From assembly GCA_015179125.1 (NCBI GenBank), contig WHVA01000094.1, positions 186,001-250,000 on the forward strand: DNA of 64,000 nt, in the 5' to 3' direction. Within the stretch, counting starts at the first letter, position 1. Each line of letters starts with the position of its first letter. The stretch is from Gautieria morchelliformis. Taxonomy: Eukaryota; Basidiomycota; Agaricomycetes; Gomphales; Gomphaceae. A program made the position numbers and the translations under genes. The notes beneath the pieces are model-generated. The model was given only the letters and a program-made list of their open reading frames with translations, searched no databases and had not been told where the DNA came from. Of the stretch, positions 2,136 to 44,999 are shown piece by piece.

Positions 2136-2211
2136 ATTCGGGTATATCTTAGATAGCTGATAGCAATACTTATACATAGCAAGATAACCGTACGATCCTC
2201 ACCGCTGTCCG

Positions 2212-3864
2212 TTACGTTATAAATGGATTGCACGCACAGATTGCACCTCTAACTCCGAAACTCATGAAGCTCCCAACCGCCAAGCCAGCCACCAAGCAGA
2301 ACTGCGCGATAGTCGCCGCGGTATCCACATCTTCCGGCCTGTGTTTCAGACGCGAATTGTGCTCGCGCGATGGCGCGGCCATCATCACAAGGCTGCCGAT
2401 GTATCCATTGCTCATACCAAAGAAGAGCAGGATCAGAAAGAACATAATATCAGAGTTGATCACCGGCCCTCCGGCGACTGGCACTCCTAGGGAGGATGGG
2501 CGGCGTACGTTGCAGAGTAGGAAAACGGGCACGAAGAGTGTCCGTGCAAGTGCCATGTAGACATGCGATCTGCTGGACCAGATTTGCAGACGGGGGACCA
2601 TCGGGAGGTAGCGTCCAATGAAATCGCCAATATTAAACGTTAGAAAATGGACGGCAGTGAAGAGCAGCGGGTGTGTGAGAGCTGACGAGGATGGGGGGTG
2701 TACCGAGCGGATGGATGACGTGATCGGAGGAAAGACTGATAATGTGACGGTGAACACGTAGGCCGCAGCAAAATTGTACTCGGCGTTCAGCTTGGTCACG
2801 TCCCATATGCGACCTTTCTTGTGCGGCAGGCGCTCCACCAACCCTTCCCCACCGACGAGAGCCTCGCGCTCCTCATCAGCGCCGATGACGCCTTTCTTGG
2901 CCTGAAACGGTGCCACCACAGCCTTGTATGCTGGTAATGTCTCCAACCAAATATGTGATGCTGTGCTGAATACCAAAAATAGGGTGGAGAGACCAAAGAA
3001 AACGAAAGCGGCACGCGCCGCAGACGCATCTTCTCCTTCGACATCAGACCCTCCTGATGCATCGCTCGTATGTATCCCCGCTCCTGCACTGAACACCTGA
3101 ATTAGACTGACCAACACGCCAACCGCAGCCTGGCCCGACATGACAGGCTGCATTGCCTCGGGCCCAAAGAGAGACGCAACAGCGACGACTGCACATTGCA
3201 GATAAGCACCAGCCGAGGCTTGACAGACGCCATTAAGCAGAATAAGCGTGAAGAAAATTGCAGGACGTAAGGGAATGAAAGTGCTGATCGCGAGGCTGGA
3301 AACAAGAATTATGAGAGCAAGTAGCGACAGTCGTATTCGTCGTGAATAGTCAGCCTAAAGGGAACACAAATCAATGAGCTTTATTGATAAACGCGTCTAT
3401 CGAGAACAGGTCTGCGTCCTACCTGTCTGGATGTAACAGTTGCGTGGGCCAAAAAGCAGAAGTTGGACACAGTAAAAGAGGTAGAGAGGTACGAGCTAAA
3501 TGTAGCTTGGAGGACTGATCCCGACAGACGACTCAGGAAATATGGCATCGCGGTAATGATTGCTAGAGATCTGTCACGAGAATGTCTGACCAGCAGTTCC
3601 AAATCTCTTACCGTTCCAAGGCAGGAGAACAGCTGCACCGAGTATGAAATTTATCCATCGTATTCGACTAGAGACTCTGGGAGAGGGGTTGAGCCGCGCA
3701 TGTTGTATGTCATTGTCAAGATCTTGCTCAAACTCTGGAGAAAGGAGGCCTTGCTCGTCTGTAGTCAAGTCACTGGGTGAGGACCGTCGCTGTGGAATAG
3801 CAGCCGCCATGCAGGGGTCTGACGAGTGGGGATTGACTCCGCGTCGTGACCTGTCACCACTCAT
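2212..3864 (-). CDS. Equilibrative nucleoside transporter (ENT/SLC29 family)
   Basis: Three exons: 3612-3864, 3423-3562 and 2212-3354. Together they make 1536 nt (511 aa) with no frame break. Exon 1 ends in a family hallmark, LLPWN, and splicing at the first intron yields LLPWNAIITAMPYF, the usual first transmembrane motif of ENT proteins. Later hallmarks are YLQCAVVAVASLFGPEAMQP with SGQAAVG and the C-terminal FFGMSNGY. About 11 hydrophobic segments are present, with a charged loop after the sixth. In fungi the homologue (yeast Fun26) sits in the vacuolar membrane and moves nucleosides and bases. The start at 3864 follows a short acidic cytosolic N-terminus. It shares a 145-bp divergent promoter with the PIG-O gene. 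Confidence 0.88.
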
Positions 3865-4009
3865 CAGCTTTGAATTGCTACCAAGATCACTCGAATTCCG
3901 CCGCTTGCAATATTACCAGAGCAAGTTTACTTTGTGAGATTTCGGTTCCTTGACATGACTCTTGAATTCTTCTCTAATGTCCAGTTCACCTTAGGAACGG
4001 CTGCGTGAG
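3865..4009. promoter_or_regulatory. Divergent promoter between transporter and PIG-O genes
   Basis: Only 145 bp separate the two start codons, so both promoters must lie here or overlap the transcripts. I see no clear TATA box or other named site. Confidence 0.45.
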
Positions 4010-7000
4010 ATGGCACGAAACTCTATGAAATGGCTGGCTCTTTCTGTCCTGCTATACGTGTTTTTTCTGCATGCCTCAACGCTGTATCTCTTCACGCGTG
4101 GCTTTCTCTTGACGCGGCTCTCTTTGTCAAATATTTCCTCTTGTTCGACGTGTACCCTTGCTCCGGCTCACTCGCGTCTGGTACTCCTCATCATCGACGC
4201 CCTAAGATTCGACTTTCTCGCTCCAGAGCCAGCCACCACTCCGTCGCCATATTACCATAACGTTCTCACTCTCCCGTCGCTTCTAACTTCTCAGTATCCT
4301 ACTCATAGCTTTCTATTCAATACCTTTGCCGACCCACCTACGGTTACCTTACAGCGGATTAAAGGAATTACCACCGGCTCGTTACCTACTTTTGTAGAAG
4401 TGGGATCAAATTTTGGGGGAAGTCAGATAGCTGAAGATTCTATTGTTCGCCAGATGACCCAAGCAGGAAGAAAGGCACGAAATCTAACGCATCTCTTTGC
4501 TGCCAACACTTATGCGCAGTAATGAACGAAGATTGCTTTCATGGGCGATGATACCTGGATAACTGTTTACCCTACGTCATTCGCTCCCAACATAACTTTT
4601 CCGTTTGATTCCTTCAACGTGGAGGACCTTCACTCGGTAGACGAGGGTGTCATTCATAACTTATTTCCCTTGCTAGAGAAGAACGCGACCTCTCAATGGG
4701 ATTTACTGATAGGCCATTTTCTAGGGGTGGATCATGTAGGCCACCGTCTAGGACCTGCACACCCCACAATGGCCGCAAAACTCAAACAGTTGAACGACAC
4801 TCTGGCTCGCGTTGTCGAGTCTCTGGATGACCAGACACTGCTTGTCGTCATGGGAGATCATGGGATGAACAGGAAGGGCGATCACGGCGGTGATGGAGAT
4901 CACGAGACCAGCGCTGCCACCTGGATATACAGCAAATCTACGTCACTTGCGTCGGGGCATATAAGTCCACCGCGACCATTGGCCCCTACTACAATATTCC
5001 CCGGAGCTCCGCTACCCCACCGCTCAATTCAACAGATCGATCTAGTCCCCACTTTGTCTCTCCTCCTCGGACTCCCCATTCCCTTTAATAATCTCGGGAC
5101 AGTAATCCCCGAACTTTTTTGTCGCGGAAATAATGACAGCCTTCTTTCAGAAGCGTTGCGTCTGAATACTAATCAAGTTAAGGATTATTTGGAGGCCTAT
5201 CGATCTAGTCCCAGCGGAGGGGAGCTGGACAGCGTTTGGAACGAAATTGAAAGGTCGTGGGCTTCCACCCTCGACAGCAAGGGCGAACAGAAGGTGTTGG
5301 CCATGCACGATTTCACTCGTCTTGCGCTTGCCTCGTGTCGTTCGTTATGGGCGCAGTTCAATGTCGTTTTAATGTCCTTTGGGCTCTTTGCGCTAGCTTT
5401 GGGCAGCGCCGCTGTCTGGGCGCTCTACACTAGCCTTGGGCGCGGCGTCCAATATTGGGAGGCGAATGGATGGGCAATTTTCGCAAGGATAGGCCTGGCA
5501 TCTTTTGGTGGTGCGGTTGTAGGCGCGACCTCGTGGGCCTTTATACCAGGAATTGCAAACTTTTTCGGATATATCGAAGCTGTCCTTACTGGAACTGCCT
5601 TGGCATCCTCTACCACGATACTCCTTTCCACAGCCCCGACCTCCTCCTTTATTTGGAAACTTCCCCCGCTTTCTATTCCTCTTATTTTCCATGCTCTCGC
5701 CTTTCTGTCCAACTCGTTCACATTCTGGGAAGACCGCATCCTGACTTTCCTTCTCATGACCTCCCTTATTCCGTTTGTCCTTTGTGCTTTCATGTACCCG
5801 CAAGGCGAGGCACGTCTGCGCCATCGTATACTCCTCTTCTCTGCCCTATTTGCTGGCTGTCTTAGGCTCATAAGCATCAGTACTGTTTGCCGCGAAGAGC
5901 AACACCCTTATTGTCACGTAACATTTTATGCCTCATCTTCACTTCCCTCGCCCCCACTGCTCGTACTTTTAATATCCCTTCCTATGTCCTTGACGTTGCC
6001 CTCCGTGGTGAGACGCTTCATGGCCATATCAGCATCAGACAAAGGCCCTGCCCCAATGTTGATTGATTGGGGCCTTCGTCTTCTCATGCTCGAAGGAAAT
6101 GTTCTATGGATGCTGGAATGGCTAGAGTCCAACGAGGTCGTTGGTTCTGAATGGGACGGTTTTCTGCGAGCTGTGAGGTCAGGGCTCGCCTTAGTTGCCA
6201 TCAGCCACACTTTAGTGGGTGGTACATTGTGGTGGTTTCTGCCACTCTGCTTGGAGGTCCATAAATCCGTAGGCCCGTCCGGAAAAAAAGAACTGCAAGT
6301 TATTGGATACGCAAACTCATACGGGTCGTCGTTTTTATTATTTCTATTGGCACTCTTCGGTCCCCTCTTTGTTGTAACACAGCTGACGGGCCAGATCATA
6401 CTCGCGTTATCAGTTATTGCACTCCTTGCGATTTTGGAAGTTTTTGACAGCGCAAGGGATCTGCGCCTGGCCATGCAATTCCAAGCTGACGAGGGCATGC
6501 CGACTATTATGTTCTCAGAGATCGTACCTGTCGCGTTACTTGCCATGCAGACATTCTACGCCACTGGTCATCAATCGACATTCCCGGCGATCCAGTGGAA
6601 GCCGGCGTTTCTTATCACGAGAACGCTTTGGTTTCCCGTCTCTCAGATACTGGTTATACTTAACTTCTTTGGGCCGCAACTTTTTTTTGCGGCGGCAGTC
6701 CCGCTGCTTACGACCTGGAACGTGGGGCCTCTCATAGCCAGCAGGGCGAAGCCCCCCGCAGATCACAAGTCGGACTCTGCGGAGTCCCCAAATGCACAAC
6801 ATACCTCCAGCAGTTCTTGGGTCTTGCTGTCCTCATTGCGCGCCGCTTTAGGGATATCGTTTTATTTCTCTGTTCTTTTGCTCAGCAGCGCTGCCAGCTC
6901 AGCGTGGCTACGACGGCACCTCATGGTATGGAAAGTTTTCGCGCCCCGCTTCATGGCGGCGGGTGCTTCGGTCCTCGCAGTGGACATAGGGGTTATGCTT

Positions 7001-7066
7001 GGAATGGCGCTGGGTGTGGGTCGAGTTGTACAAAAAGTTGAAAAGACATTTCAGCGTTTAATGTGA
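4010..7066 (+). CDS. GPI13: GPI ethanolamine phosphate transferase 3 (PIG-O / GPI13)
   Basis: Transfers ethanolamine phosphate to the third mannose of the GPI anchor in the ER membrane; this is the bridge to protein. The N-terminus has one membrane anchor (residues about 5-30). An alkaline-phosphatase-type catalytic domain follows: LLIIDALRFD, then GDDTW, GHFLGVDHVGH and VMGDHGMN with GDHGG, which hold the metal ligands. The C-terminal half has more than ten hydrophobic segments. Length is about 999 aa, normal for the family. Two in-frame stops at 4520-4525 are removed if bases 4475-4531 are a 57-nt GC-AG intron. That splice joins QAGRK to IAFMGDDTW, exactly as in homologues. The gene converges on the uL24m gene, with 118 bp between stop codons. 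Confidence 0.92.
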
Positions 7067-7184
7067 TTGCATTCATGTTTACAAGCAATCAATTAAATAA
7101 CTCGCTTCAAAAGATGAGCCATTTACTATAATTGCGTATGATTGTGATAGGTTAACAGCTTTCCACCAAATATTTGTATACAAG

Positions 7185-8464
7185 CTATTCTATCGTTGAA
7201 GCTTGACTGCCGGGAAGAATCTGGTTGGGGGCGGGATCCAGTACAAGGGCTTGCATCTTCTCCACCACCTTGCGTTCCTTTCTTTCTTGTCGGAGCCGTC
7301 TCCTTTGAATACGCGCAGCACCACCTCTTAACACCCACTGCTTTTGCTTTCTGTCCTTCTCCTCCTTCCTACGCAGTTCGGTCCATTTCCACTCTGCTTC
7401 GACTAGTGCTTCCTTGCGGGTGCGACCATCGAGAATGGCAAGTTCAGCCTCCAGGAAACGCTTGTGAGCCAGGTGGCGAGCCTTGATGCGACCCTTATAG
7501 CGGTGTTGCTTTTTTGTCCGAGAATGTGGATTTGAGAGTTCATCTCCGAGCATATATTCAATTGCTGGAAACGTCTCCTGATTATATTCAAGAGCGGGTA
7601 CGGAAAGCGGGGGTGGACGAATAGAGTGAAGGTAAGAGTCTTGGAGATGCTTAGCCTTGGAACTGTTGGAAGGTGGATAGAAGAGATATGATGGGCGCCA
7701 AGTAATTTCATTCGCTGCATCGGCAGGTGTGTCGCAGGGTTCGACTGTTTCGAAATGGGATACGTAAGTGTCTAGCAACATTACCATAGGGAACTTACTG
7801 GAAGGAATTGCGGGCACAGGCGGCTTGGGCCATGGAATGTGAATCTTTATTTTTTCGCCTTGTTCGGCAACGCGGGGAGTTGTCTGCACAGCATAACGTT
7901 CCCAGTCAAAGCGACCTAGGTTTATAGCATATTTTGGGGCTGTACAGACTATACGGGTGGCAAAGACACTGAAATGCTTTCAGGATACGTGAGATAACAT
8001 TAACATTAAGAAATACGAACGGGACGACCAAAGACTTAGTTTCTCCCGCTAGTGGGGGAAACTCACGGTCTCCTATATAGAGCTGGCATTTTGAGTATGG
8101 CACTTTCGGTTGCGTAGGTACCTCCTGAGAAGCAGTTTCTTGTTGCTTGTAGCGCAACTCAGCGAGCCAAACGAGGAACGCCAAAGATAATGCACACCTG
8201 GCGAGCTTTAAAATACACCAGGTTTCTGAACTTGTTGACGCCAAATACTTCCCTGAGAGTTCCTCCCTCACCACGTATACGAATGCGGTCCCCTGGTACA
8301 ATGTTCCATTGCTTTATTCTGTCTTTGACTGGGACTGGTGTAGGTAACTTTTGGGCCTTTAACCGTGCCCGGGCCGCCTTGGGCAGTGGTACGAGATGCT
8401 CCCAATGGCGAGTCCAAGGGGATTCGTCAATCGTGCGGAGAGCATTGAGACGAAAAACACCCAT
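7185..8464 (-). CDS. MRPL40: Mitochondrial large-subunit ribosomal protein uL24m (MRPL40-like)
   Basis: Exon 1 (from 8464) encodes a basic N-terminus and a KOW-type motif, NIVPGDRIRIRGEGG followed by REVFGVNKFRN, diagnostic of ribosomal protein L24. A middle exon gives VPYSKCQLYIGD. The long last exon (7185 to about 7940) gives FATRIV, then GRFDWERYAVQTTPR and a highly basic coiled C-terminus rich in RRRLRQERKERK. This matches the extended fungal mitochondrial form, which is larger than bacterial L24. A 40-nt intron starts GTGTGC near 8215. The second intron is less certain: donor GTATTT near 8015 with acceptor near 7980 restores frame. The start lies 64 bp from that of the divergent MBF gene. 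Confidence 0.8.
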
Positions 8465-31096: not shown

Positions 31097-31444
31097 TAGG
31101 GCACGGGGGCAAAGTCGTTTATAACTTTGGGTTATACACTAGATGCCGGGCCCAAGCCCGGGCTTTGGGGCGGAGCCGGGCCTGCATATCACTACTCTTG
31201 ATATAGGAACGGGCCAGCATGTAAATAACAAGGTAAACACACAAAAGAAAGAAGGATTTCTATTTTTATTTTTACAAAATAGGTGAAGAGGGGGAATCGG
31301 AACTGCCGTGAAAAGCGGCAGCACTGCTTCGACTATCGTGTCCATAACTTCGACAGGTTTCTCGCTATCACCGACACCTACCACCAGTAGTAAGAAATGC
31401 ATTCTGCATCCCCCCGACGTGTTGCGAAAACAAACATTTCACTA

Positions 31445-33230
31445 TTAGAACCCCTCTACGAACTTGAACACATCCTCAGGATCCACAGCTCTCTTTATGC
31501 TCTCTAGTCGCTCGACGTGCTCCCCAAAGTATAGTCGACGCCACTCGTCATGGGTCAGCGTCGGATCCATGTAGTTCGGGTACGCCCCACGGGGCTTGCG
31601 TTCCAGGGCCGACACCATGCCATCAACAAATGGAATGCCGTCTTTCGGGTACGGCGGTGTGATAGACGAGGCGTACAGCTGGTACACAAGGAACGCATCC
31701 CGGTGCGCAAATGCAGTAGCGTCGGCGGGCACCGCGTTGATTGCACTCTTGCCTCCGCCGTACACTGCGCACGTCGTCAGCTGACCCTACAGCTTCTCGC
31801 ATGGCTACTCACGGTCGACCTGCGCGAACCAGGTCGTGTTGCTCCTCGATCCCTCCGCTGCCAGATAATTCACCCAGGACGTGATCGAAGCATTCGAGTC
31901 AGGCTGGCTCGTTATGATAGACTGCCACCGATTCAGTACAGAATACATTTATACGTAGACAAAGAAGTCACCTTGGCAAAAAATGTATCATGCTACGCGC
32001 CCGTCAGCACAAATGCAGAGAACAAAGGTGAAACCTACATACACTATCAGGTTGAGACGTGCTGATCGTCCCGTTATCGTTCGCTAACGCAGCCAGTCCC
32101 TCGATCCATCCCAGTGCATTGACCGTCATATTTGCAACCTTCGGGAGCGTGACCACGAACGGGTTAATCACTTTTCTGAACTCATCCTCGGTTCCGTAGT
32201 AGTTGCCCGAGAACTCCGTCGAGACTGTCCCAAGTTGGCCGGGGATCGCTACGAAGAGAGCTGCCATCGCGAGCTCATTCGGGACCGTCGTTGCAAATGC
32301 TTCCCAGGCCGCATAAGCCGCGACTGTCTCGGGTATGCTGAGCGGTTCGAAGGTGATCACATAGCGTACTGTCGTGGGCGGGGCAGGCAGGGTCAGGTAT
32401 GTCCATGCCGTGACGAGTCCGAATGAGGGGCCACCGCCTCGGAGTGCCTACGCGTGAACATTCGATCAGTGCCATCCATACGAGTTCGGACTACGTACCC
32501 AGAAGAGGTCCGTGTGCGAGGTGTTGGAGGCCGTCACCAACGTCCCGTTCGCGAGGACGACTTCTGCAGACACGACCCTGTCCAACAACAGCCCACCAAT
32601 TCTCGCAAATTTTCCAAATCCACCATACAGGGTATGTCCTCCCGTTCCAACCTACCATCAGAAATTCAATAGTCGCCCAATCACACGACTCCAAGACGCC
32701 ACGCACATAAGGACACGACCCATGCGGCAACGCGCGTTGTCCTTGGTCAAAGATGCCCGTCGCGAGTTCCCCCAGTCTGTTTCCTGTCTGGACAACAGCT
32801 GTCCCGTCAGAATTGAGCGTGAGCCCCTTCATGTTTTCCATGTTGATGACCACGTCCCCCGATAGGCCGTAAGCAGCGTAGGAGTGCCCCCCTGACTTTG
32901 CAGAGACGGAGAGCTGGGCTTTCCCTGCGCACGCCACGACAGCCTGGATTTGGCTCACCGATGTGCTAAACACGACGACATTGTCAGAAATACAGGAACA
33001 TGCGTACAGGGACTGCAGGTAAGTAGTTACGGGATAACGACGAAGGACGGGTCAGTACGGATTCGTAGGTTGAAGGGCTCCGAGGCATTCAAGTAACCTG
33101 GGGTTGACGGTGTGAATACCACGAGGTCAGAAATCATGGAGATACACTGTTGTGCAGAGTGTACGTGATTTCCCAGCGCCGCCACCGAGGCGAATACAGA
33201 CCCTGAAATCAGCATTGACAATCTCGCCAT
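31445..33230 (-). CDS. Secreted FAD-linked oxidase, berberine-bridge-like (copy 1)
   Basis: Signal peptide at the N-terminus (MARLSMLISGSVFASVAAL). The FAD-binding PCMH domain contains SVSAKSGGHSYAAYG, whose His is the usual covalent flavin site. GSCPYV then VGTGGHTLYGGFGK follows across an intron; its Cys is the second flavin attachment in sugar-oxidising members. The substrate domain and a C-terminal BBE motif follow (YPNYMDPTLTHDEWRR, then ERLESIKRAVDPEDVF). Such enzymes oxidise sugars or secondary metabolites outside the cell. Five or six introns, each under 80 bp. A paralogue at 36117-37903 has the same exon layout and about 85-90% identity, including the 3' flank. Confidence 0.88.
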
Positions 33231-33585
33231 GTCGTGGCTTGTCTTCAAGTCTGTTCAACCCCCTTCAGCACCTATCGTCCCAGGCTCGGCGCTAGGCTCG
33301 AAGCTTCGACTTCGACTCCTGGGAGCGGCTTGGAATAGCAACAGTGCCGCTGCGCGTCCAGCACAACCACCTGTCCAAATTGTCCTAAAAAATTGACATA
33401 GAGTACTGTCTAGTAATGATTTTCCCAACTGCAGATATGTAAACAGTTACTGCATAATTTATACGGCTGGATGAGCCACTGTTCGACATTCGTGCAGTAC
33501 ACGCGTTGAGCTCAAATCGGATTTTAACAGTACGAGATTCCAACTAGTACTCCCTGCATCAGCCCAGTGCCCTTTCAACTTCCCA

Positions 33586-35049
33586 TCAGTGATCGTGGTG
33601 GTCGTCAGGCGGACTAACTGTCCCTGGCGGCGGGATGACTCCCGGACCAGTGACGGAGCACGCCAGGGCAGCAGTAGTGTTCCCGGGTGCCGCGAGCGGG
33701 GGCATCACCGGGAAATTCGGCGTCTGTTTCGCTAACGCCTCAAAGTCCAAGAAGTCCGTTAAATCGTTCGCATTTGCGTCACGGAAGGTGAGTGCGGGGA
33801 GGTTGAATTTCCGCTCAAGGAGCGCCAGGACAGACGTATGGTCATAGACCATGTGGCTGACGAAATCCCTTTTCGCATACGGCGAGATGGCGATCATGGG
33901 CACACGGAAGCCATAGCGCTGATAGCCGTCGAATTGGGGCTCATTTGGGTTAATGGGCAGGATGGAGTCGGGTCGCAGGGCGGCAGGAGGCGGGACGTGG
34001 TCAAAGTAGCCGCCGTGCTCGTCGTAGTTGATGATGAAGAGGGTTTTATTCCACAGGGGCGAATTCCCGATGGCATGCGTGATATCGGAAATGAAGGCGT
34101 CGCCGAGGACGACGTTACGCGGATTCTCCTGCTCAACGCTGTTGTTGGGGTCGATGAAACTGAACTGCGGCAGCATGCCGGCTGCAGCGTCGGCGAAGAA
34201 ATCGGATATAGATTTATGGTTGACGGCTTCTGTCAGGTTATCGTTGATGAGGAATAGTTCTGGGGTCGCCCCATTGGGAAACTGTGCAACGTAGTCGGTC
34301 CAGCTGATATTGAACTTGTCGAGCGTATTGAAAATGGTTCCTGCCGCTGGTTGTAGCTGGCTGATGTCCTGGTTGTCCTCGGTAATTCCCAGCGAGGTGG
34401 CCGCGATGAGGTACATACGGTTAGGAAATGTCTGGCCTAAAAGTGAACAAAAAAATCGGTCGGCAATGGGAAACTGTTTTGCCAGGCTAAATGTCGTTGG
34501 CAGGTCTTGCTCGATGTAGTAGCCCATGGCTACTCCTCCGACAAGCAAGGTGCTACCCTGGAAGATTGGGGTAGAGACAAAGCCATCCATGCTTCCGTTG
34601 TCGAAGGCATTGTGACTTGCGGTCCACGTTTGGCTTGGCTGGCTAGGTAGCTGACACGTGTTGGGCATATGAAAAGCGTGTTGAATTGACCCATTGGGAT
34701 AAGGATTTGTAGCGAGTGGCTTCCCGTCAGGACCAAGCGTGAAGCCATCCCCACGACCCAGCAGACCGAACATGTTGTCGAAGGAGTGGTTTTCCATCAT
34801 CAGCATTATGATATGCTCGATCCCGGGAAGCGTGTCTGTCCCTGCGGGTAATTTGGGATTTGGAAGAGACCCGGGGTGTCGCAGCTCCTCGCGGCCCAAA
34901 GCGCGCAATGCCGCCTGCACACTGTCGTCGAGCTCGGGTGATCCTGGGTTAGGGTCTCCGTCACGGCGACTATGGTTGGCAAGCACGACATTCGCCGCGG
35001 CGCAGAAGCAGACAGCAGCGTTGAAAATGAAACGCATCGGATTCGGCAC
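33586..35049 (-). CDS. Secreted phosphoesterase / non-specific phospholipase C (PF04185-type)
   Basis: 487 aa in a single exon. Signal peptide MRFIFNAAVCFCAAANVVLA. Metal-site motifs: IEHIIMLMMENHSFDNMFG (nucleophile region), QTFPNRMYLIAATS, INYDEHGGYFDHVPPP and YGFRVPMIAISPYAK. The C-terminus is Pro/His-rich (PPDDHHDH). The family hydrolyses phospholipids or phosphate esters and is common in bacteria and filamentous fungi. The lack of any intron contrasts with its intron-rich neighbours, which suggests retrotransposition or old horizontal transfer. It lies between two copies of the FAD oxidase, all on the minus strand. A decayed relative sits at about 42.8-43.6 kb. Confidence 0.9.
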   Translation of the reverse strand: MPNPMRFIFNAAVCFCAAANVVLANHSRRDGDPNPGSPELDDSVQAALRALGREELRHPGSLPNPKLPAGTDTLPGIEHIIMLMMENHSFDNMFGLLGRGDGFTLGPDGKPLATNPYPNGSIQHAFHMPNTCQLPSQPSQTWTASHNAFDNGSMDGFVSTPIFQGSTLLVGGVAMGYYIEQDLPTTFSLAKQFPIADRFFCSLLGQTFPNRMYLIAATSLGITEDNQDISQLQPAAGTIFNTLDKFNISWTDYVAQFPNGATPELFLINDNLTEAVNHKSISDFFADAAAGMLPQFSFIDPNNSVEQENPRNVVLGDAFISDITHAIGNSPLWNKTLFIINYDEHGGYFDHVPPPAALRPDSILPINPNEPQFDGYQRYGFRVPMIAISPYAKRDFVSHMVYDHTSVLALLERKFNLPALTFRDANANDLTDFLDFEALAKQTPNFPVMPPLAAPGNTTAALACSVTGPGVIPPPGTVSPPDDHHDH

Positions 35050-36116
35050 CAGCGGTCGCTGGTTAGGATTGAGTGACAGAAACCGGGCACTTTATACTCA
35101 CCGCGCAAGTCGATAGACTTGAAGCGAGTATCTATTCTTGCCGCGACACACAGGGTTGACGTCTGAGCCTCTCGTTCCAGCTTCTCAGCAGTGCTGATTC
35201 GCTGAGCTGTCAACGGCGTTCCCAGCTTTATTACAAGTTGCGCACGTGCTCAGCATAGCTGATTTCCCTTGTTACGGTGCTTCTGAGTGAGTGAATTGTT
35301 TGGGGATTCCCTGGGAATGAGAATGAGCTTTCACGAGTGGTGAGGCGACGTTACCTAACACACATCTCTGCGCACAGACACCAGTTGGATTGGCGATGAG
35401 GACAGATGGCTGGATACAATGGCAGTCAGATTTTCTCACACTTCTTCCGGATACGAGACATCCAGACTTGTCGTCGATTTTGTGCCTTTGTCCAACGTGC
35501 AAGGCGGGAGATATAACTGACGGAATCTGCTAACTAGAGGGAGGGCCGGCGTGCACCCGGCAGACCGTGGCTGATTCCGAATCTGGACGTTACTTTGGTC
35601 TGGATGTGCACATCAAAAGCAAGTCTATAAAAGCTCGCCACTCTTTCACTCACTTTCGACTCTTCCAACCTAAACTTGCTGCTCCGACAAGCTGTAGAGG
35701 TATGGTCGTTTACTTGGTTCTTTTTTCTTCACCGCCAGCACAGTCTCATAGTATTTACAAGAAACTCAAGCCAGCTGCGAGCAAATCCCCAGTCAGGACC
35801 GCAGGAGGTCGCTCAGAGTTCATAGCCCAGCGTATCCCACGGATCGAAGATTCCACCTCTCTGCCACACGTGGAATTTTCGATGGGCATGCCGCCAACCC
35901 CTTACGATGAAGAAACATACGATTTTCTGTCGCAGCTGATCAGTTCAATCCAAACATACGATGTCTTAGGGTGGGATGTGTGTTGTTAGGATAAAGATAG
36001 ACTCAAGCCATATGTACTGAAACCTACCAGTTTCTCGCTATCACCGACGTTCTACCGTCAATAGGAAATACATTCTGCATACCTCCGACGTGTTGCGAAA
36101 ACAAATAATTTCATTA
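35050..36116. other. Intergenic, with a possible small plus-strand gene
   Basis: A TATA-like TCTATAAAAG lies at about 35623. Downstream, an open frame at 35567-35989 (or from Met 35701) encodes about 95-140 residues ending in DVLGWDVCC. A GTATGG...CATAG intron (about 35700-35752) is possible. I do not recognise the product. The last 110 bp before 36117 match the 3' flank of FAD oxidase copy 1 (31350-31444). Confidence 0.3.
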
Positions 36117-37903
36117 TTAGAACCCCTCTACAAGCTCGAAGACATCCTCAGGATCCACAGCTCTCTTTATGCTCTCTAGTCGCTCGACGTGCTCCCCAAA
36201 GTATAGTCGACGCCACTCGTCATGGGTCAGCGTCGGATCCATGTAGTTCGGGTACGCCCCACGGGGCTTGCGTTCCAGGGCCGACACCATGCCATCAACA
36301 AATGGAATGCCGTCTTTCGGGTACGGCGGTGTGATAGACGAGGCGTACAGCTGGTACACAAGGAATGCATCCCGGTGCGCAAATGCAGTAGCGTCGGCGG
36401 GCACCGCGTTGATTGCACTCTTGCCTCCGCCGTACACTGCGCGCGTCGTCAGCTGACTCTACAGCATCTTGCGTGTCTACTCACGATCGACCTCTGCGAA
36501 CCAGAACGCGGTGTCGCTACTCGATCCCTCCGTTGCCAGGTAATTCACCCAGGATGTGATCGAAGCATTCGAGTCAGGCTGGGTCGTTATGATAGACTGC
36601 CACTGGATCGGTACAGCATACACCGATATGTAGAGAAAGAAGTCACCTTGGCAAAAAATGTATCATGCTACGCGCCCGTCAGCACAAATGCAGAGAACAA
36701 AGGTGAAACCTGCGCACATTATCAGGTTGAGACGTGCTGACCGTCCCATTGATCGCAAACGCAGCCAGTCCCTCGATCCACCCCAGTGCATTGACTGTCA
36801 TATTTGCAACCTTCGGGAGCGTGGCCACGAACGGGTTAATCACTGCTTTGAACTCATCCTCGGTTCCGTAGTAGTTGCCCGAGAAACTTATCGAAACTGT
36901 CCCAAGCTGCCCGGGGTTTTCTCCGAAGAAAGCTGTCATCGCGAGCTCATTGGGCGCCGCCGTTGCAAATGCTTGCCAGGCTGCAAAGGCCGCAACTATC
37001 TCGGGTACGCTGAGCGGTTCAAATGCGATCACATAGTGTATCGTCGTAGGCGGGGCAGGCAGGGTCAGGTATGTCCATGCCGTGACGAGTCCGAATGAGG
37101 GGCCACCACCTCGTAGTGCCTACGCGTGAATATTCGGTCAGCGCATGCCATCCATACGAGTTCGGAGTATGTACCCAGAAGAGGTCCGTGTGCGAGGTGT
37201 TGGAGGCCGTCACCAACGTCCCGTTCGACAGGACTACTTCGGCAGACACGACGGTGTCCAACAACAGCCCACCAATTCTCCCAAATTTTCCAAATCCACC
37301 ATACAGGGTATGTCCCCCCGTTCCAATCTACCGTCAGATACTAATTCAATGACCGCCAGTCACACGAGACGCCACGCACGTAAGGACACGTCCCATGCGG
37401 CAACGCGCGTTGTCCCTGCTCAAAGATGGCGGTCGCAAGCTCCCCCAGTCTGTTTCCTGTCTGGACAACAGCTGTCCCGTCAGAATTGAGCGTGAGCGCC
37501 TTCATGTTTTTCATGTCGATGACCACGTCCCCCGATAGGCCGTAAGCAGCGTAGGAGTGTCCCCCTGACTTTGCAGAGACGGAGAGCTGGGCTTTCCCTG
37601 CGCACGCCACGACAGCCTGGATTTGGCTCACCGATGTGCTAAACACGACAATGTCAGATATACAGGACCGTGCGTACAGGGACTGCAGGTAAGTAATTAC
37701 GGGGTAACGATGATGGACGGGTCAGTATGGATCCGTAGGTTGTAGGGCTCCGAGGCATTCGAGTAACCTGGGTTTGACGGTGTGAATACCACAAGGTTAG
37801 AAATGTTGGAGATACACTGTTGTGCCGAGTGTACGTGGTTTCCCAGCGTCGCCACCGAGGCGAATAGACTGGACACCGAAATCACCATGAATAATTTCGC
37901 CAT
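36117..37903 (-). CDS. Secreted FAD-linked oxidase, berberine-bridge-like (copy 2)
   Basis: Paralogue of the gene at 31445-33230 with the same motifs: signal peptide MAKLFMVISVSSLFASVATL, flavin site SAKSGGHSYAAYG, GTCPYV followed by IGTGGHTLYGGFG across an intron, and the C-terminal ERLESIKRAVDPEDVFE. The last exon is almost identical to copy 1, while the middle exon has drifted more (for example IAFEPLSVPEIVAAFAAW versus ITFEPLSIPETVAAYAAW). The intron after CPYV differs by several bases and a short deletion. No stop or frameshift was seen, so both copies look functional. The start at 37903 is chosen to match copy 1; an upstream Met at 38032 is open. Confidence 0.87.
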
Positions 37904-39337
37904 TGCTGTTGAATCGTGGCTTGTCTTGGAAGCCTTTCTGACCTTCTGACTTGGAGACGCCGGGTAGTGCTGGATGGCCCAAATAGGGAGGGCGCCAGCC
38001 ATTGCTGAAAAGCCAGGTTTTTGATGCTCCACCTCAGGATAAAGCTTAAAGGATAGTCCAAATTCACTGCAAGGCAGCGAAGCTGAGCCGGCGGCCGATA
38101 ATCATGCTGTCTCTTACCTTTACTATTAGCCAGATCCGAGTACCCGTGCCACTGGCTCCTCTGCAGTCGCCATCTAAACGAAGGAAAAGAAATGCCAATG
38201 GAGCTGCTTCCCTGTATCAGAGAGAGAATGATAATTCTGTGTGGCAATCCGGGATTTCTGCTGACTCATCCGCAACGATTCTTATGTCACCAAGTAGGGA
38301 ATTGGTGGACAGTGAAAGGAGTATGCAAAGACAATGGTATAAGAATTATTTAATCAGGGTGTGGCAGCCCATCCGGCGTGTCGACATCAAGATCCATCAT
38401 CCCCGACCAAGAAAGCAATCGCCTGGTGCACGGGTTTTTCTTCTTTTTTGGGGGTCTTCCCACCCCGGGCCCTCCTTCGACGGCTTCCACCCCCGTCCTC
38501 GCCACCCCCGTCCTCGCCGACCCTGCCCTCCCACCCACCTCGCACTCCTACCCTCCCCCCACGTCACCCCGCCTGCTCCCCCGGTCTGTCTTAGGCGTGC
38601 GTCCTCGCTGTTCTGTTCTAACTCCCCCACCAGTGGACAGCGCAGCCGCTGACGCCACCTCTCCTGCCTGTCCTCCTACCTGCTCGCCCGTCCAGTCCTC
38701 CACACCTCCCCGTCCGACGGGCCCTGTCTGTCTGGCGTGCGCATGCCCGCGATACAAACACGCCTCTGGGCGGCGTAGGCGGCTGTCCCCGCACGCATCG
38801 TGGCAGATCTCCCCCCTATATAACATCCCATGTCACCTTTTCCATCAACCAAAATCCTTAGTTCTACTATATTGTATTATGAGTTACATTATCCAAATTC
38901 TCTGGCGATCATTTATAACTCTGGGAATATATCTAGATACTACTTAGAAGTCATGAGGAGTTGATAGCAAATATAAGACCTCATTTTCATTGGATAATTC
39001 TGCAGATATTGCTTTAACAAACACAACTGAAAATACAATTCAAAAACATAAAACATATGGAAGATAAAATCATCTTTTTAAAATCCAGATTTAGAAAATA
39101 TCCCGACCCTACCCCTCTCCAACTCCCCACGTCCTCGCCGATGCACCCGGCGCTCCCCACGCTCATCCTCATCACCGTACTGCCTCCGTCACCCTACCCT
39201 TGCGGACGCCGCCTAAACAATACTGGTGGAACACCATCACCAGCCTCCTCGCCTTGCAGAGCCCTTATTTTTCTTCGGGGCAAAGTAGGTCGGATGGGTA
39301 GAAGACCGAGAATCTTCCCCTCTCTCCCCACCGTGCC
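37904..39337. other. Intergenic: C-rich low-complexity and AT-rich tracts
   Basis: 38440-38780 is a C-rich tract (CCCGTCCTCGCC, CCCTCCCACCCACC) that produces long ORFs in several frames with proline- or arginine-rich, non-protein-like content. 38830-39090 is strongly AT-rich. 39100-39330 again carries C-rich sequence. I see no gene. The abrupt composition change suggests degraded repeat DNA. Confidence 0.4.
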
Positions 39338-42300
39338 TTATCTTCTGCGTGCCCTCCGACGGCGACCGGTGGAGGGCGCGTCGGGTTGGGGGTCAGCCTG
39401 TCGGCCGGCTTCAGCCTGTCGAGTGGCTCGCTCTTCGGCCTCTCTAGCCCAGTTGCAACTGCGATCTCTCTGCCCTGGGCGGCTTGGGGAGCTCTGCCGT
39501 GGAGTGGAAGTTGGCCACCGCGAACGGCCACGGGCCAAGTGCGCGTCGGATTGGGAGTCAGCCTGTCGCGGGGCTTCAGCCTCCCGTGCGTCGCTAGCCC
39601 GGTTCACGCTCCGATATCCCTCTCGTCGAGGTGAACCAGACCGCTGACCAGCATTAATTTCCTCTTGCCCCACGTCCGAACCAGGGTCAGCGCCCTGACG
39701 CTCCTTACGCCTACGACACATTCAGTTAACTCTGATATTTGCCCGTTGCAGAGATTCTTACCTTTGGCGGGCACTCTCTCCCGCATTTGTGGGCGAGTGG
39801 CTAATAAACCATCAGCTATTGGTGTATACAAGGAAATCGCCCAATTCTCACCTTCCGCCTATTATTTGTGCTTGGCGGTGGGATTGGGCCGCCGAGCCAC
39901 CTTCTTCTCCGCCTCCGCCTTCTCCGCGAGCCTTCTTCTCCGCCGCCGCCCTCATTAACTTCTCCCGTTCTCCCGGTATCCCCATCGCGCCTCGGCGAGG
40001 CCCGGACTCTCTAAGGGGAAAATTGTTCCCCGCCACGTTGCTTCCTGCAGGTTGGGTGTGGTAGACCGCTGCGGAGCCAAGAAACTCTCGTGGCTTCGGA
40101 GCGGCGGGTTGGGAAGACACAGCTGAAAACGCTGAGGTAACCAGGCGATCCGTGGGCTGGCTGTCGTTTCGGTCAGGCCTACGATACATTCAATTAGCTG
40201 TGATATTTGCCCGCCTGCAGAGATTCTTACCTTTGCCCGACATCCGCTCGTCCATGTGGGGCGATCAGTGAGCGACCCTGGTTAGTCGGCGAGCCGCTAA
40301 TAAACTATCAGCTATGGGTATACAGAAATCACCCAACTCTTACCTTCCTTCTGTCACGTGTGCGTGAGGTTGGGATTTGGGTGAGGGTGAGGTCTCGGCA
40401 GTTGGCGAGCTGCTGATAAACTATCAGCTATGGGTATACAGAAATCACCCAACTCTTACCTTCCTTCGGTCACGTGTGCGTGAGGTTGGGGTTTGGGTGA
40501 GGGTGAGGTCTCGGCAGTCGGCGAGCCGCTAATAAACTATCAGTTATGGGATTACAAGAAAATCGCGCAATTCTTACCTTCCTTCCGTCACTGGTGCTTG
40601 AGTATGGGGTTGGTGGGGTGAGGACTCTGGCTCGGCATCAGCCGCCTCAGTTGCCGAGTCACTAATAAACCATCAGCGCTCAGTACGCAACGAAAGCACC
40701 CAATTCTTACCTCCCTTCCCTCATGTGCGCCTGGGTGCCCTCTGACGCGGTTTCATCCACCGAGTTGGGGCCATCTGTTAGGTTCTCTACCCTGATGCCT
40801 TCTGCCTTGGTTGACTCAGTAATAGCTTGTAGTCCGGACTGATATTGGACATTTTGTGCCTCGAGTGGGTCTTGCAGCTCATTATTTTCGGGGCTCCCGT
40901 CACTGTGGCCGGTCTCGACGCTGGGGTCGTCTGTTGACGCGTCGCTAGAGAAAGAACTGAACTCGCTCGAGACGGCATGCGCCTGACTGAGACTGCTCTC
41001 TGGACGGGGCCTCAAAATGTGATTAGGAAGAGTCTTGACTTCTGGGATACGCTCGAGGAGTTTGTTCAAGCCCTCGTCTGGCATGCTGTCTAAGTCCAGT
41101 CCCAAGCGCGCATACGCTGCTTCACGTTGGGCATACGTGCCGTCAACGTCGTCGATCGAGTCTGAGGCAGGTGAGTCGGGGGGAGTGGCAGGCGTTGATG
41201 CAGCGGTGTTCTCCAACTCAGCGCTGGCGCTCTCACGCTGCTTGCGAACAGTTTCTGGGTCACTGAATCGGAAGACATGGTGTTCACCTAGATATCTGAT
41301 CAGCACAATACAAATAGCCAAGTTGATTGCAATTTACCGAGAATGATACGGGAGCCAGAACGAAGCGTGTAAGACTACATAAAGACCCCATTAAGTTAGA
41401 CAAGCTCAATCAATGCAGGGTACAGCTCACCTGCCCAACTGTCAGCTGCTCGCCGTTGAGGAACTGTGGGTATGAGCCGTGAGGACCATCGACAAGGACG
41501 AGTTACTAAATTCGTACCGTTGTGCTGTTTGGCTGGGCACTAAGCGTCACCTCTCCATCTGTATTGTCGAAGAAACAATGCTCCTCAAGAATGTGGTCGC
41601 CGGTAAGTGGAATACCAGCTGGGTTTTCACTGTCCAATCGACCGACCTGCCATGCGACACGTCAAACTTGTCACCTATAGTGACTGTGTGACACGTACCA
41701 TGGTTCGCCCAGGGCGCAGCTGATAGACAAGACATTCACTCATCAGAGGGTCTGGATCAGATATTAGTCACGTGGAATCTGACGAACTGGTCAACTCACC
41801 TTCGTTCTATGTCACCCAAACAAACAATAACCATTATTGAGTACCACAGATTATAAGGAACGAAATACTAACCAAGTTGACCAGGTGAGGCGTCTAGGTA
41901 ATTACATCATCAGCCACAACTTGCCATTCGCGCACCGGTAACGCACCTTAGGCATGTGTAGGCGCGCGTTGTTCTCGACAGTGATTCCGAGGTCTTCCAA
42001 TGCTTTCTCGCGCTCCTTCTGCGCTTCTTGTGTACGCACCAGGTCGTCCATGAGCTTCTCGCTGGTCTCAAGCTGCTCCTGTAGCTCTGCCATGCTGATT
42101 TTCTTGATCGTACCATCCTTGGCTCGATACGTGATGATCTGCTTCTCCAGCGGCACCTTGGGGCCCCACTTGTCCCCGCCCGAAGAGCCAAACACTCTTA
42201 CCAAGACGTGCGAGAGCAAGAATACAGCCATCGCCATCGGTAAGAGTTCTTGCCAATGTCCACGAACATGATCGATGGCAATCGTGTTCACGATCTAGAA

Positions 42301-42685
42301 TGGCGGATCAGCTCTTGCCTTTCACATTAGTGTGGCAACATACCCAGAGGAGATCTGTGAAAGAGGCATTTGACATTGGCACAGGCGGTGCGTTCGCAGC
42401 GTCGATGAGGCTGTCCATCGCGGCGAGTGGTCCGGGGGCGGGTCGAAATGTTGGAGTTGCGGTGGCGAAGGCAAGGGGGATGACAGGGGTGGCGAAACCG
42501 GGTGATGGCTGGGGGAGCAGCTCGAGCACACGTGTTGGGGCCTGGCAAAAAATTGGGGGCGGCAGGACGCAGAAGTTCGTGGCGAAAGTAGCCGTGTCGG
42601 TGTTGTCCGTGTTTGTCGGTGGCGAGGGTGGGATTCCGAGGGTTTGTAGCACGGCTACAACGTAGCCAAGCATCAGATATAACAT
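39338..42685 (-). CDS. Chimeric protein: motorless kinesin-3 neck + FHA module with a duplicated-exon tail
   Basis: Sixteen exons followed by hand (high to low): 42344-42685, 41947-42294, 41873-41893, 41800-41806, 41699-41751, 41518-41646, 41431-41463, 41338-41374, 40711-41287, 40578-40661, 40460-40528, 40344-40412, 40231-40296, 39852-40178, 39762-39800 and 39338-39710. They total 2574 nt, 857 aa, with no stop. Exon 1 gives a hydrophobic start (MLYLMLGYVVAVLQ) of unknown origin. Exon 2 enters kinesin-3 neck sequence (KVPLEKQIITYRAKDGTIKK, KEREKALEDLGITVE). Exons 3-8 give the FHA domain (HLVNL, NEDPLMSECLVYQL, HCFFDNTDGEVTL, ILGEHHVFRF). Exon 9 has the post-FHA AQREAAYARLGLDL. The motor, PH domain and rest of the kinesin are absent. 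The tail is disordered, Pro/His- then Arg-rich. FHA domains bind phosphothreonine. Confidence 0.75.
39711..40710 (-). repeat. Tandem exon-intron repeat array in the chimeric gene
   Basis: Two intron types recur. Type A starts GTAAGAGTTGGGTGATTT and ends GTTTATTAG (about 47-50 nt); five copies are seen. Type B starts GTAAGAATCTCTGCA and ends TATCGTAG or TGTCGTAG (about 51 nt); two copies are seen. Exons between type-A introns (40460-40528 and 40344-40412, 69 nt each) are nearly identical; 40578-40661 is a diverged relative. A larger unit [type A intron, short exon, type B intron, longer exon] is present twice (39852-40343 and 39338-39851). Every internal exon is a multiple of three (84, 69, 69, 66, 327, 39 nt), and every intron is in phase 2, so any copy number keeps frame. 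Confidence 0.9.
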
Positions 42686-42750
42686 TCTGTACCGCTACAA
42701 GATGGCGGTTTGCACAGAGGAGTTGTGGGGGGCGCTCCTCGCGCCAGCCC

Positions 42751-42760
42751 TTTATATATC
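42751..42760 (-). promoter_or_regulatory. TATA box of the chimeric gene
   Basis: On the minus strand GATATATAAA lies about 66 bp upstream of the start codon at 42685. This is well placed for a core promoter and supports exon 1 being a true 5' exon. Confidence 0.5.
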
Positions 42761-42829
42761 CCAAACCAATACAGTAGCGCTTAACTTGCTTAATGCGCGG
42801 GCCGGGCGACGGCTCGAACGGTTCGGTGC

Positions 42830-43560
42830 TTGCCAACGACATTTAATCAGCCTGTGAAAACCGTTTCCTAATGCATCAATTTCTTTGTTCAGTTTTGGGC
42901 CCAACCCGGTATACCTCATGGCAGCCACCTCCAGCCAGAACCGACGGCTGGACCCATTTTCAATACGCTCCACTCGTTCAATCTCAGCTGGACCGAATAC
43001 GTTGCTCAGTTCCCCAATGGGGCGACCCCAGAACTCGCCGAGCTGTGCACCCCCCTTCACGCGTAGTGGTGGCATCACGTCGGGGAATCACGATCAAAAG
43101 CCTGGAGGTGGTGGCGCCCGCGAAGCCACCCCAGGCGGTGGCGCCAGGCCCGACGCCCCGGCCAGCGACGAGGGCATCGACGAGGGCAGTGTCGCGCTGC
43201 GTGCAGAGGTGCGCGGCGCGCGATGGGGCATGGTGCGCGGTGGGCGGGCGTGGCGGCAGCGACGGGGCGGGACGGGACGAGATGCACATCGGCATTGTAT
43301 GGCACCTGGCCAAGGGATCGGGTCCTGCCAAGTGCTGTCAAAGTCTATATGACATTTATTCGCCGACGCTCCAGCCCGCGTAACGTCGTCCTCGGCGACG
43401 CTTTCATTCCGACCTCACGCATGCCATCGGGAATTCGCCCTGTCGAATAAAACCCTCTTCATCATCAACTACGACGAGCACGACGAGCACGGCGGCTACT
43501 TTGACCACGGAGTCCCGTCTCCTTTGCATCCCAATTGAGTGAGTGCCAATTCAACGGCTA
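42830..43560 (+). pseudogene. Decayed phospholipase C copy, interrupted by GC-rich DNA
   Basis: Fragments of the phosphoesterase at 33586-35049 recur on the plus strand. 42880-43040 corresponds to the region around its FFCSLLGQTFPN and NISWTDYVAQFPNGATPEL, with frameshifts. 43378-43520 corresponds to RNVVLGDAF through INYDEHGGYFDH, where a GACGAGCAC triplet block is duplicated. A GC-rich block (about 43080-43340) sits between them and replaces the intervening coding sequence. Several stops and frameshifts make it non-functional. The orientation is opposite to the intact gene. Confidence 0.7.
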
Positions 43561-44999
43561 TCAGCACTATGGCTTCTGTGTGCCACGATCGCCATCTCAT
43601 CCTCGGATATAGATCAGGGCGCTAGGTGGACAGGCTGTTGTCGGATTTAACTAACGTCACTAGCTGAGAAGACTTGGAAAGAATATCATCGAATATTTGG
43701 AGGTCGTCCATACGTTGGTTGCCACATCTGTGAGCCGGCCCGAGTGAGTGGTGGAATCGTGCACCGTTGGTGCGGATAACATTAGGCTACGTAGAAGTGA
43801 ACGACAAATTGTAGTTGTTCTGCCACTTACCTCAACCCATCAGGCGCGTGATGACCCAGTACTGCCACCTGGGAAAATCAAGCCTGTCGATTCCGGGAAT
43901 CAGAAACTACAAAACTGTCATCGCGCCAGCGAAACGTGTAGAACGCCGGCACACAAAATCGACAGATATTACCACTGTATCAAGGGACTGGGCACGTGTT
44001 CGCTATTCGCAAATTTGATAATTCTGTCTGCCGTCAATTTTTGACGGTTTCAGGATTGAATGCTGTTGACATACCGAAGACATTTGGTCGATTCTGGGTG
44101 TGACAAAAAGTTTGTCAGTCATACCTGTTTATATTATTCGTGTCTCGCTCGACGTGAAGCTGGGAACGTGATGTTGTAGTTGTTTTCGGCTGAAGGGAAG
44201 ACAGCTGCTATATTACCGCCCCTTGTTCGGTTGTTCCAAGCAGTCGATGAAATTAGCGCATGCAATGTCATAGTCGTCGGAGCAGTCTCAGACCCCCAAA
44301 TACTGCCATCACTGTCCAAGTCACACACATTGTTGCGACGCCCATTTCTCTCATCCAGGACAGGCCACGCAAACCCGCCAAGTTCGGCCCACGAGCATAG
44401 AGCAGGAATGGCTTCGTAAGTGGAATCGAGCCCGAGTTACGAAACAGAAAGCCCCGGGGGGATTGGCCCTAGCCAGTTTTATTGAGAAGTAACATGCACA
44501 CCATCGGCTATGTATTCCTTTGGACCAGAAATAGGGAGGCCAAGCCAGGTTTCATATAAGACTGCTCGGGTAGGGTAGGCCGTTCAAGGACACAGGTGCC
44601 TCTGGGACGTGCTGAAGTTGCTCCGACAACATATCAAGGTATCCCTGACGACCAAAGGCCCACAGTCTGTCCAGGGGAGACGGTCATGTTGGGATTGATA
44701 TATGGATGAGTTCAAGACCCTAACATCGAGAAGAGCGGCGAGCAAGCAAGATGTCTGCGTGAGGAGCAAGTCGTCGCCATTGTTTGTCGCAGAAAGTCAT
44801 TCCCCGCAATGAGAGAATATGGAGGAAGGATTGGAGAAGGATTTCGTTTGGAATACTATTCTTACTTGGCTTGGCTGAGCGGGGAAAGTTCGATGAATAT
44901 TACTAAGCGCTGAAAAAGGAAACCTATCCCTTGCCGCAAGCAACTGACTGACTGACTGACCTTGAGCTGCAACCGACGAGCGTTTGTGACGAAACGGCC
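43561..44999. other. Intergenic, no gene recognised
   Basis: Only short ORFs. Nothing at 43740-44400 or 44440-44950 looks like a known family, RNA gene or repeat. A short tandem GACT run (ACTGACTGACTGACTGAC) occurs at 44943-44960, just upstream of the BIG1-like gene. Confidence 0.35.

Follow-up and report, generated by a model that had tools for sequence, protein, structure and literature searches.

Kinesin-3 proteins of the KIF1/UNC-104 type (Klp8-type in fungi) are recognized by a motor domain (PF00225), an FHA domain after the neck, and a C-terminal PH domain. Chimeric new genes can arise by exon shuffling through introns, as exemplified by jingwei, and Helitrons and Pack-type transposons are able to spread families of gene fragments. 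Here we describe a gene in a 64,000-nucleotide (nt) stretch of the Gautieria morchelliformis genome (contig WHVA01000094.1, positions 186,001 to 250,000, hereafter the window, on the contig designated C1048) that resembles each of these systems in part. It lies on the minus strand (all coordinates are window positions unless another contig is named) and carries an FHA domain after the neck as in kinesin-3, while the motor domain and the C-terminal PH domain are absent. The gene is a real chimeric copy of broadly the origin that a first-pass annotation of the window had proposed, and any present function is putative. In the reading that we hold to be narrowly probable, it is a drifting young chimeric gene or proto-gene: a member of a dispersed family of oxidase-kinesin-3 fusions with a probably translated ancestor, of which the window copy shows no clear protein-level constraint today.

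The comparison with the known systems can be made feature by feature. In common with kinesin-3, the chimera has a CC1 remnant, the FHA domain, the post-FHA linker, the micro-exon structure and remnants of PH exons; unlike kinesin-3, it lacks the motor, KIF1B, DUF3694 and a whole PH domain, begins with a foreign N-terminus, has lost the NETWE and (K/R)RWFVL motifs and differs from its parent at 9 of 101 FHA residues. As in jingwei, a partial duplicate and the 5′ exon of another gene are joined in phase-matched introns, but the window family has many dispersed copies, an exonised intron and tandem exon duplicates, and is known from DNA alone. With the Helitron and Pack-type families it shares the combination of several gene fragments that were then copied around the genome, a likeness that lies in the fragments and their spread. 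A literature search on chimeric new genes, exon shuffling and partial duplication in fungi, kinesin included, found no matching paper. In this one fungal genome the kinesin parent can be compared with relatives of the oxidase, the introns that contain the breakpoints, and both sister copies and decayed members of the family, so that it can be asked directly whether a chimeric gene goes through a stage of translation without constraint.

Rebuilding the gene from its splice sites between 42685 and 39338 gave 16 exons with GT-AG introns throughout and 2,574 nt of coding sequence (857 codons and a stop), free of internal stops, which reproduces the annotated model exactly (Table 1). When the spliced protein was compared with Pfam, Kinesin_assoc (E 2.7e-16) and FHA (PF00498, 27.0 bits against a cut-off of 20.7) were matched. 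The top solved-structure relative was KIF1A 4egx (E 1.4e-33), and the closest structures were all FHA-bearing kinesin-3 fragments (KIF1A 4egx and 4ejq, KIF1B 2eh0, KIF1C 2g1l), in agreement with the likeness to the kinesin-3 neck, FHA and post-FHA segments that had been claimed. Up to an E value of 0.1, the motor (PF00225), KIF1B, DUF3694 and PH (PF00169) models all remained without a match. The statement that motor, PH and cargo domains are missing thus holds at the level of domain models, while the complete absence of PH sequence that it implies has to be corrected: past about 40783 the gene runs into intron 22 and exon 23 of the parent (the PH-domain start), repeated in tandem, and remnants of this first PH-domain exon and of the introns on either side of it lie in exons 10 to 15. 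Two peptides from exon 1, compared with Pfam, matched no family, and a search of a plasmid collection gave no match and was uninformative.

A model of this shape could also result if a complete kinesin-3 had been read only in part, its motor being spliced in from nearby exons, the outcome that the annotation had named as fatal to its proposal. We looked for such exons: none of the 33 kinesin-motor matches found genome-wide lies on C1048, so no motor exon was found there, and the motor-bearing parent is on contig C325. Within this assembly the truncated reading is refuted; we found nothing in its favour and regard it as vanishingly improbable.

The search for a full-length kinesin-3 parent, suggested by the annotation, was successful. 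The parent lies on C325 (L040, about 2167–8100), where 23 exons from the motor to the first PH exon were reconstructed without a stop; the C-terminus follows exon 23 as expected, with the last intron not resolved in the reconstruction. A kinesin of Ramaria rubella shares 91% identity (99% coverage) with the parent protein, and that of Sphaerobolus 82%; R. rubella is mentioned as newly sequenced in PMC7550596. Exons 3 to 9 of the chimera track the parent exon for exon, including the 7-nt exon.

The 5′ end has a different source. The 3′ end of exon 1, beginning near 42398, and the adjoining first half of intron 1 resemble an oxidase mosaic present on C252 (81% DNA identity) and C707 (79%), and this mosaic in turn matches the window's own flavin adenine dinucleotide (FAD)-linked oxidase genes at 71–78%, in scrambled order. 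Direct comparison of exon 1 with the window's two oxidase genes gave a 22-nt match to one (E 0.08) and a 19-nt match to the other (E 0.28), too short for significance. The remaining half of intron 1, which ends in CCATTCTAG, comes from the kinesin gene, where it forms the acceptor end of the intron that precedes the neck exon. The kinesin parentage of the chimera is, on this comparison, certain, and the oxidase parentage is indicated by 71–81% similarity through the intermediate mosaic. The join between exons 1 and 2 is in phase 0 and falls inside introns of both source genes, the arrangement that defines intron-mediated exon shuffling. These findings agree with the annotated origin by partial duplication and exon capture, given the hybrid phase-0 intron 1, the foreign 5′ exon and the existence of a full-length parent; a new 5′ exon joined in phase 0 through an intron is what we observed, with an oxidase-like donor half and a kinesin acceptor half. 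We propose that the fusion of an FAD-linked oxidase gene with internal kinesin-3 exons started the dispersed family. Because the join in the window copy falls within introns of both genes, the spliceosome would meet an ordinary phase-0 intron, which would leave the FHA exons in their old frame.

The remainder of the gene has been reworked. In exon 2, the parent intron at L040 3959–4013 is no longer an intron: its acceptor AG now reads GG, and the intron, in shortened form, has become part of the exon. The exonised intron encodes residues 131–149, with a mean hydropathy of 2.04, compared with 1.91 and 1.81 in two sister copies. This stretch resembles a membrane helix and may serve as an anchor, which makes it a concrete candidate for a membrane-helix-like segment originating from a retained intron. 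The last exon resembles the tails of copies C178A, C720, C440 and C648b. If expressed, the product would have hydrophobic segments at residues 1–19 and 131–149, a CC1 of reduced length and an FHA fold, and its tail, enriched in A, S, R, P and G, would probably be disordered.

The window gene is a member of a dispersed fragment set and not a unique gene. Searching the genome with the parent DNA identified at least 63 matching pieces (parent included) on at least 16 contigs (C325, C1048 and 14 others), the count of 63 being a lower bound since it comes from 25 scored candidates. On C648, C173, C1004, C440, C252 and C707, oxidase pieces adjoin the kinesin pieces or lie within about 200 bases of them, and a near-complete oxidase match is present on the parent's contig, about 30 kilobases (kb) away from the kinesin and in the same orientation. 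Contig C178 holds two near relatives of the window gene, copies A and B. C178A is interrupted by a long terminal repeat (LTR) retrotransposon in which domains for gag, reverse transcriptase and RNase H were identified, along with an integrase match just under the Pfam cut-off, and which is bounded by a 5-base-pair (bp) target duplication; C178B has a 2-bp frameshift, and its match stops within the FHA part. The possibility that the C178 copy is an allele was judged unlikely, with piecewise identity of 83–98% and differing outer flanks. Two observations concern the fused and multiplied pieces themselves. At C648:209207–211271 (L063), an oxidase-kinesin fusion unit of about 485 bp is present in three tandem copies, with one frame open across the joint. 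On C675, C208, C79, C40, C197, C937 and C215, oxidase fragments have an identical inner joint (query 470 to query 573, adjoining in the genome), and give the impression that one oxidase piece, after splicing or deletion, was amplified.

To compare the family with its source, nine copies (window, C178A, C178B, C226, C648a, C648b, C720, C440 and C707) were aligned to the parent, and the window copy has the longest frame still open among them. For the indel set, blast pieces shorter than 100 columns were dropped, copies on eight further contigs with kinesin pieces were left out, and one 27-nt gap across an intron and an exon was excluded from the counts. Exonic indels common to at least two copies were all multiples of three (9 of 9), while this was true of only 4 of 17 private exonic indels (Fisher P 0.0002). 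For intronic indels, multiples of three made up 0 of 5 shared events (Fisher P 0.0005 against the shared exonic ones) and 1 of 9 private events. In the window copy alone, MAFFT gaps relative to the parent were multiples of three in 6 of 6 exonic and 0 of 5 intronic cases (P 0.002). Between the window and C178A we observed no exonic indel except 9 nt at the C178A insertion joint. Since all inherited shared exonic indels keep the frame, the ancestral chimera was probably translated, and the simplest reading is that the copies leaving descendants were open chimeras. Two of the shared deletions nevertheless remove motifs conserved in kinesin-3: a 24-nt deletion takes out NETWE, present in 119 of 120 kinesins, and a 21-nt deletion takes out the (K/R)RWFVL motif, present in 105 of 120. 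Since both motifs are almost universal, these in-frame deletions are unlikely to have been inherited from a working kinesin-3 paralogue that escaped sampling.

The same data bear on whether the gene is plain debris, a mosaic of gene fragments that was stop-free by chance from the outset. Frame-breaking exonic indels are present in 5 of the 9 aligned copies, C178A is split by the LTR element, the C173 copy shows tandem and inverted scrambling, and exons and introns have diverged equally from the parent, all of which fit debris. The annotation had argued that 857 stop-free codons are unlikely for debris. This argument proved weak: a neutral model starting from the parent predicts 2.7 stops in 340 aligned codons, P(none) = 0.06, and for the window lineage alone P(no stop) is 0.53 (the two figures rest on different mutation models), while the 64 kb hold 190 stop-to-stop stretches of at least 100 amino acids in six frames. 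Stop-free survival is accordingly weak evidence in our view. The contrast between shared exonic and shared intronic indels, together with the P of 0.06 from the parent, speaks against debris from the outset, which we consider decidedly unlikely.

If the ancestor was translated, is the window copy constrained today? The divergence between window and parent is 83/1,039 (8.0%) in exons and 30/378 (7.9%) in introns, and between window and C178A it is 6.7% and 5.6%, respectively. The ratio of nonsynonymous to synonymous substitution rates (Ka/Ks) is 0.86 for parent and window (neck 0.67, FHA 0.92, linker 0.93), 0.94 for the window and its sister C178A, and 1.1 for the first 67 codons of exon 1 against C178A. 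For the FHA part, Ka/Ks is 2.66 for parent and C178A and 1.39 for window and C178A, on few changes. The window lineage carries 8 synonymous changes among 40, where 10.7 would be expected without selection. As a second test of constraint, we aligned 120 agaricomycete kinesin-3 proteins and, from 369 parent columns, dropped those gapped in the window, C178A or Ramaria. The window copy is changed at 56 of 335 comparable sites, and near-invariant sites are changed in 22 of 130 cases, compared with 21.7 expected at random (permutation P 0.43). In contrast, the Ramaria control is changed at 14 sites, none of them among the 130 near-invariant ones, and the Sphaerobolus control at 66 of 333 sites, 6 of 130 near-invariant; in each case 0 of 20,000 permutations reached this result, although both controls belong to the 120 proteins that define conservation, which somewhat favours them. 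The 25 changes common to window and C178A show no lean to variable sites (P 0.95; 13/130 near-invariant). The earlier view that the open frame shows function is not borne out, as the changes largely ignore codon position and the sites conserved in kinesin-3. Faster evolution of exons than introns was seen in the PH part of several copies and was not used because it is confounded by the hybrid exons.

Several observations weigh against the reading of a translated ancestor and a now unconstrained window copy. On the side of the ancestor, nine shared indels from nine copies are a small sample, gap placements differing by 1–5 bases were merged by hand into one event, and the window-only contrast is weaker with blast gaps (6 of 6 exonic gaps in frame compared with 1 of 4 intronic ones, P 0.03). 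The branch common to the window and C178A carries 12 synonymous changes among 38, a poor fit with strong selection on the ancestor. The chimera, moreover, is seen here as DNA sequence only. On the side of the present copy, neck Ka/Ks is 0.31 for parent and C178A and 0.39 for window and C178A, and comparisons with C178B over 152 codons give 0.37 (parent), 0.49 (window) and 0.65 (C178A). C178B exons are also less diverged than its introns, 6.1% versus 8.7% in blast pieces (6.6% versus 14.4% in the multiple alignment, which extends beyond the end of homology). The 28 window-private changes lean weakly to variable sites (P 0.08; 8/130 near-invariant), exons 3 to 5 (81 nt) are identical between window and parent, and the nine FHA changes are rarer than those in the flanks, so that weak constraint on the FHA core is compatible with the alignment. 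As tests of selection on a functional gene, the overall Ka/Ks values and the random placement of changes thus stand against the low neck values and the in-frame shared indels. The evidence overall leans against strong constraint: the window copy would now be drifting, or its product would tolerate almost any sequence.

A functional new gene today would be a membrane-anchored, motorless FHA protein that binds kinesin-3 partners or the motor and regulates it. The 857 open codons with all splice sites, an FHA domain above the Pfam cut-off, the hydrophobic segment retained in three copies, the shared in-frame indels, the neck Ka/Ks against C178A and a TATA-bearing block identical in three copies are consistent with such a gene. 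A T-rich intron, when translated, is hydrophobic in any case, which lessens the weight of the retained segment. The parent Ka/Ks values near 1 in the FHA and linker parts, with 0.67 in the neck, and the changes at conserved sites argue against it, and no matching chimera was recognised among the best 120 of 406 database matches; the matches lacking a motor model that we inspected (e.g. P0016, P0017 and P0022) are at most 59% identical and may be partial gene models. We consider present function unlikely. Slightly less probable again is the fuller proposal of a multi-copy chimera family formed by intron-intron joining, its frame kept by selection during copying, that in the window copy still yields a membrane-anchored FHA protein with an intron-derived helix modulating kinesin-3.

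FHA domains contact phosphothreonine through Gly-Arg, Ser-x-x-His and Asn-Gly motifs. In the window, VGR, the His of EEHC and LNG are kept, while the Ser position of Ser-x-x-His is Leu in both window and parent. The form ILEEHC is the commonest, found in 68 of 120 agaricomycete kinesins, with ISEEHC in 6 of 120. Because the parent also lacks the canonical Ser, it is uncertain whether any member of this kinesin-3 line reads phosphothreonine. The suggestion that a free FHA protein competes with the parental kinesin would require a folded FHA domain and is speculation.

How the family spread is separate from the question of function. Capture and dispersal of kinesin and oxidase exons by a Helitron or another transposon would explain the numerous partial copies at unrelated loci, some sharing joints, in a genome with a heavy Helitron load (all 150 scored Helitron-like N-domain candidates match, of 865, many in long open frames). 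However, segmental duplication with tandem and inverted rearrangement explains these copies equally well, and no Pfam domain was found in a seemingly helicase-like stretch near C648a. Castanera et al. (2014, PMC4289320) report that Pleurotus Helitrons do not capture host gene fragments. Transposon dispersal is, on balance, doubtful.

The sequence upstream of exon 1 also recurs in other copies. The 42686–42830 module is 96% identical to C178 copy A (141/145 nt) and 93% to copy B (88 nt). The TATA-bearing block identical in three copies spans 50 nt, which as evidence of selection is suggestive only. If the gene is expressed, the module would drive transcription, intron 1 would be spliced, and the hydrophobic stretches could act as signal or anchor. 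The downstream part of the module recurs at 85% on C47, C173 and C238 (C47:188788–188861, C173:61679–61737 and C238:185580–185633), where this short TATA and 5′-flank segment precedes other sequence.

Table 1. Positions of the exons of the oxidase-kinesin-3 chimera and of the elements upstream of it in the window
Feature	Position	Strand	Description
Exon 1	42344..42685	(-)	342 nt; first ~95 codons without assigned origin, 3′ end from ~42398 resembles FAD-linked oxidase exon
Intron 1	42295..42343	(-)	Hybrid, phase 0; donor half oxidase-like, acceptor half kinesin
Exon 2	41947..42294	(-)	348 nt; remnant of kinesin neck exon, former kinesin intron now exonic, truncated CC1
Exon 3	41873..41893	(-)	21 nt; FHA start
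Exon 4	41800..41806	(-)	7-nt micro-exon, FHA; same micro-exon in parent, L040 4442-4448
Exon 5	41699..41751	(-)	53 nt; FHA
Exon 6	41518..41646	(-)	129 nt; FHA
Exon 7	41431..41463	(-)	33 nt; FHA
Exon 8	41338..41374	(-)	37 nt; FHA
Exon 9	40711..41287	(-)	577 nt; FHA end and post-FHA linker; parent homology stops near 40783
Exon 10	40578..40661	(-)	84 nt; tandem hybrid exon 1
Exon 11	40460..40528	(-)	69 nt; tandem hybrid exon 2
Exon 12	40344..40412	(-)	69 nt; tandem hybrid exon 3
Exon 13	40231..40296	(-)	66 nt; remnant of parent's first PH-domain exon, carries 21-nt deletion
Exon 14	39852..40178	(-)	327 nt; low-complexity linker
Exon 15	39762..39800	(-)	39 nt; second PH-exon remnant
Exon 16	39338..39710	(-)	373-nt tail, like tails of other family copies; ends in stop
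TATA-box and 5′-flank module	42686..42830	(-)	Upstream of exon 1; recurs in other copies
Broken inverted phosphoesterase copy, pieces	42830..43598	(+)	Upstream of chimera

The neighbouring part of the window contains two FAD-linked (berberine-type) oxidase genes on the minus strand (31429–33245 and 36100–38000), about 90% identical in DNA, that flank a phosphoesterase-family gene (33586–35091, minus strand; Pfam E 3.6e-73). The latter is the source of the inverted pieces upstream of the chimera, and more partial copies of it are present on C178 and C473.

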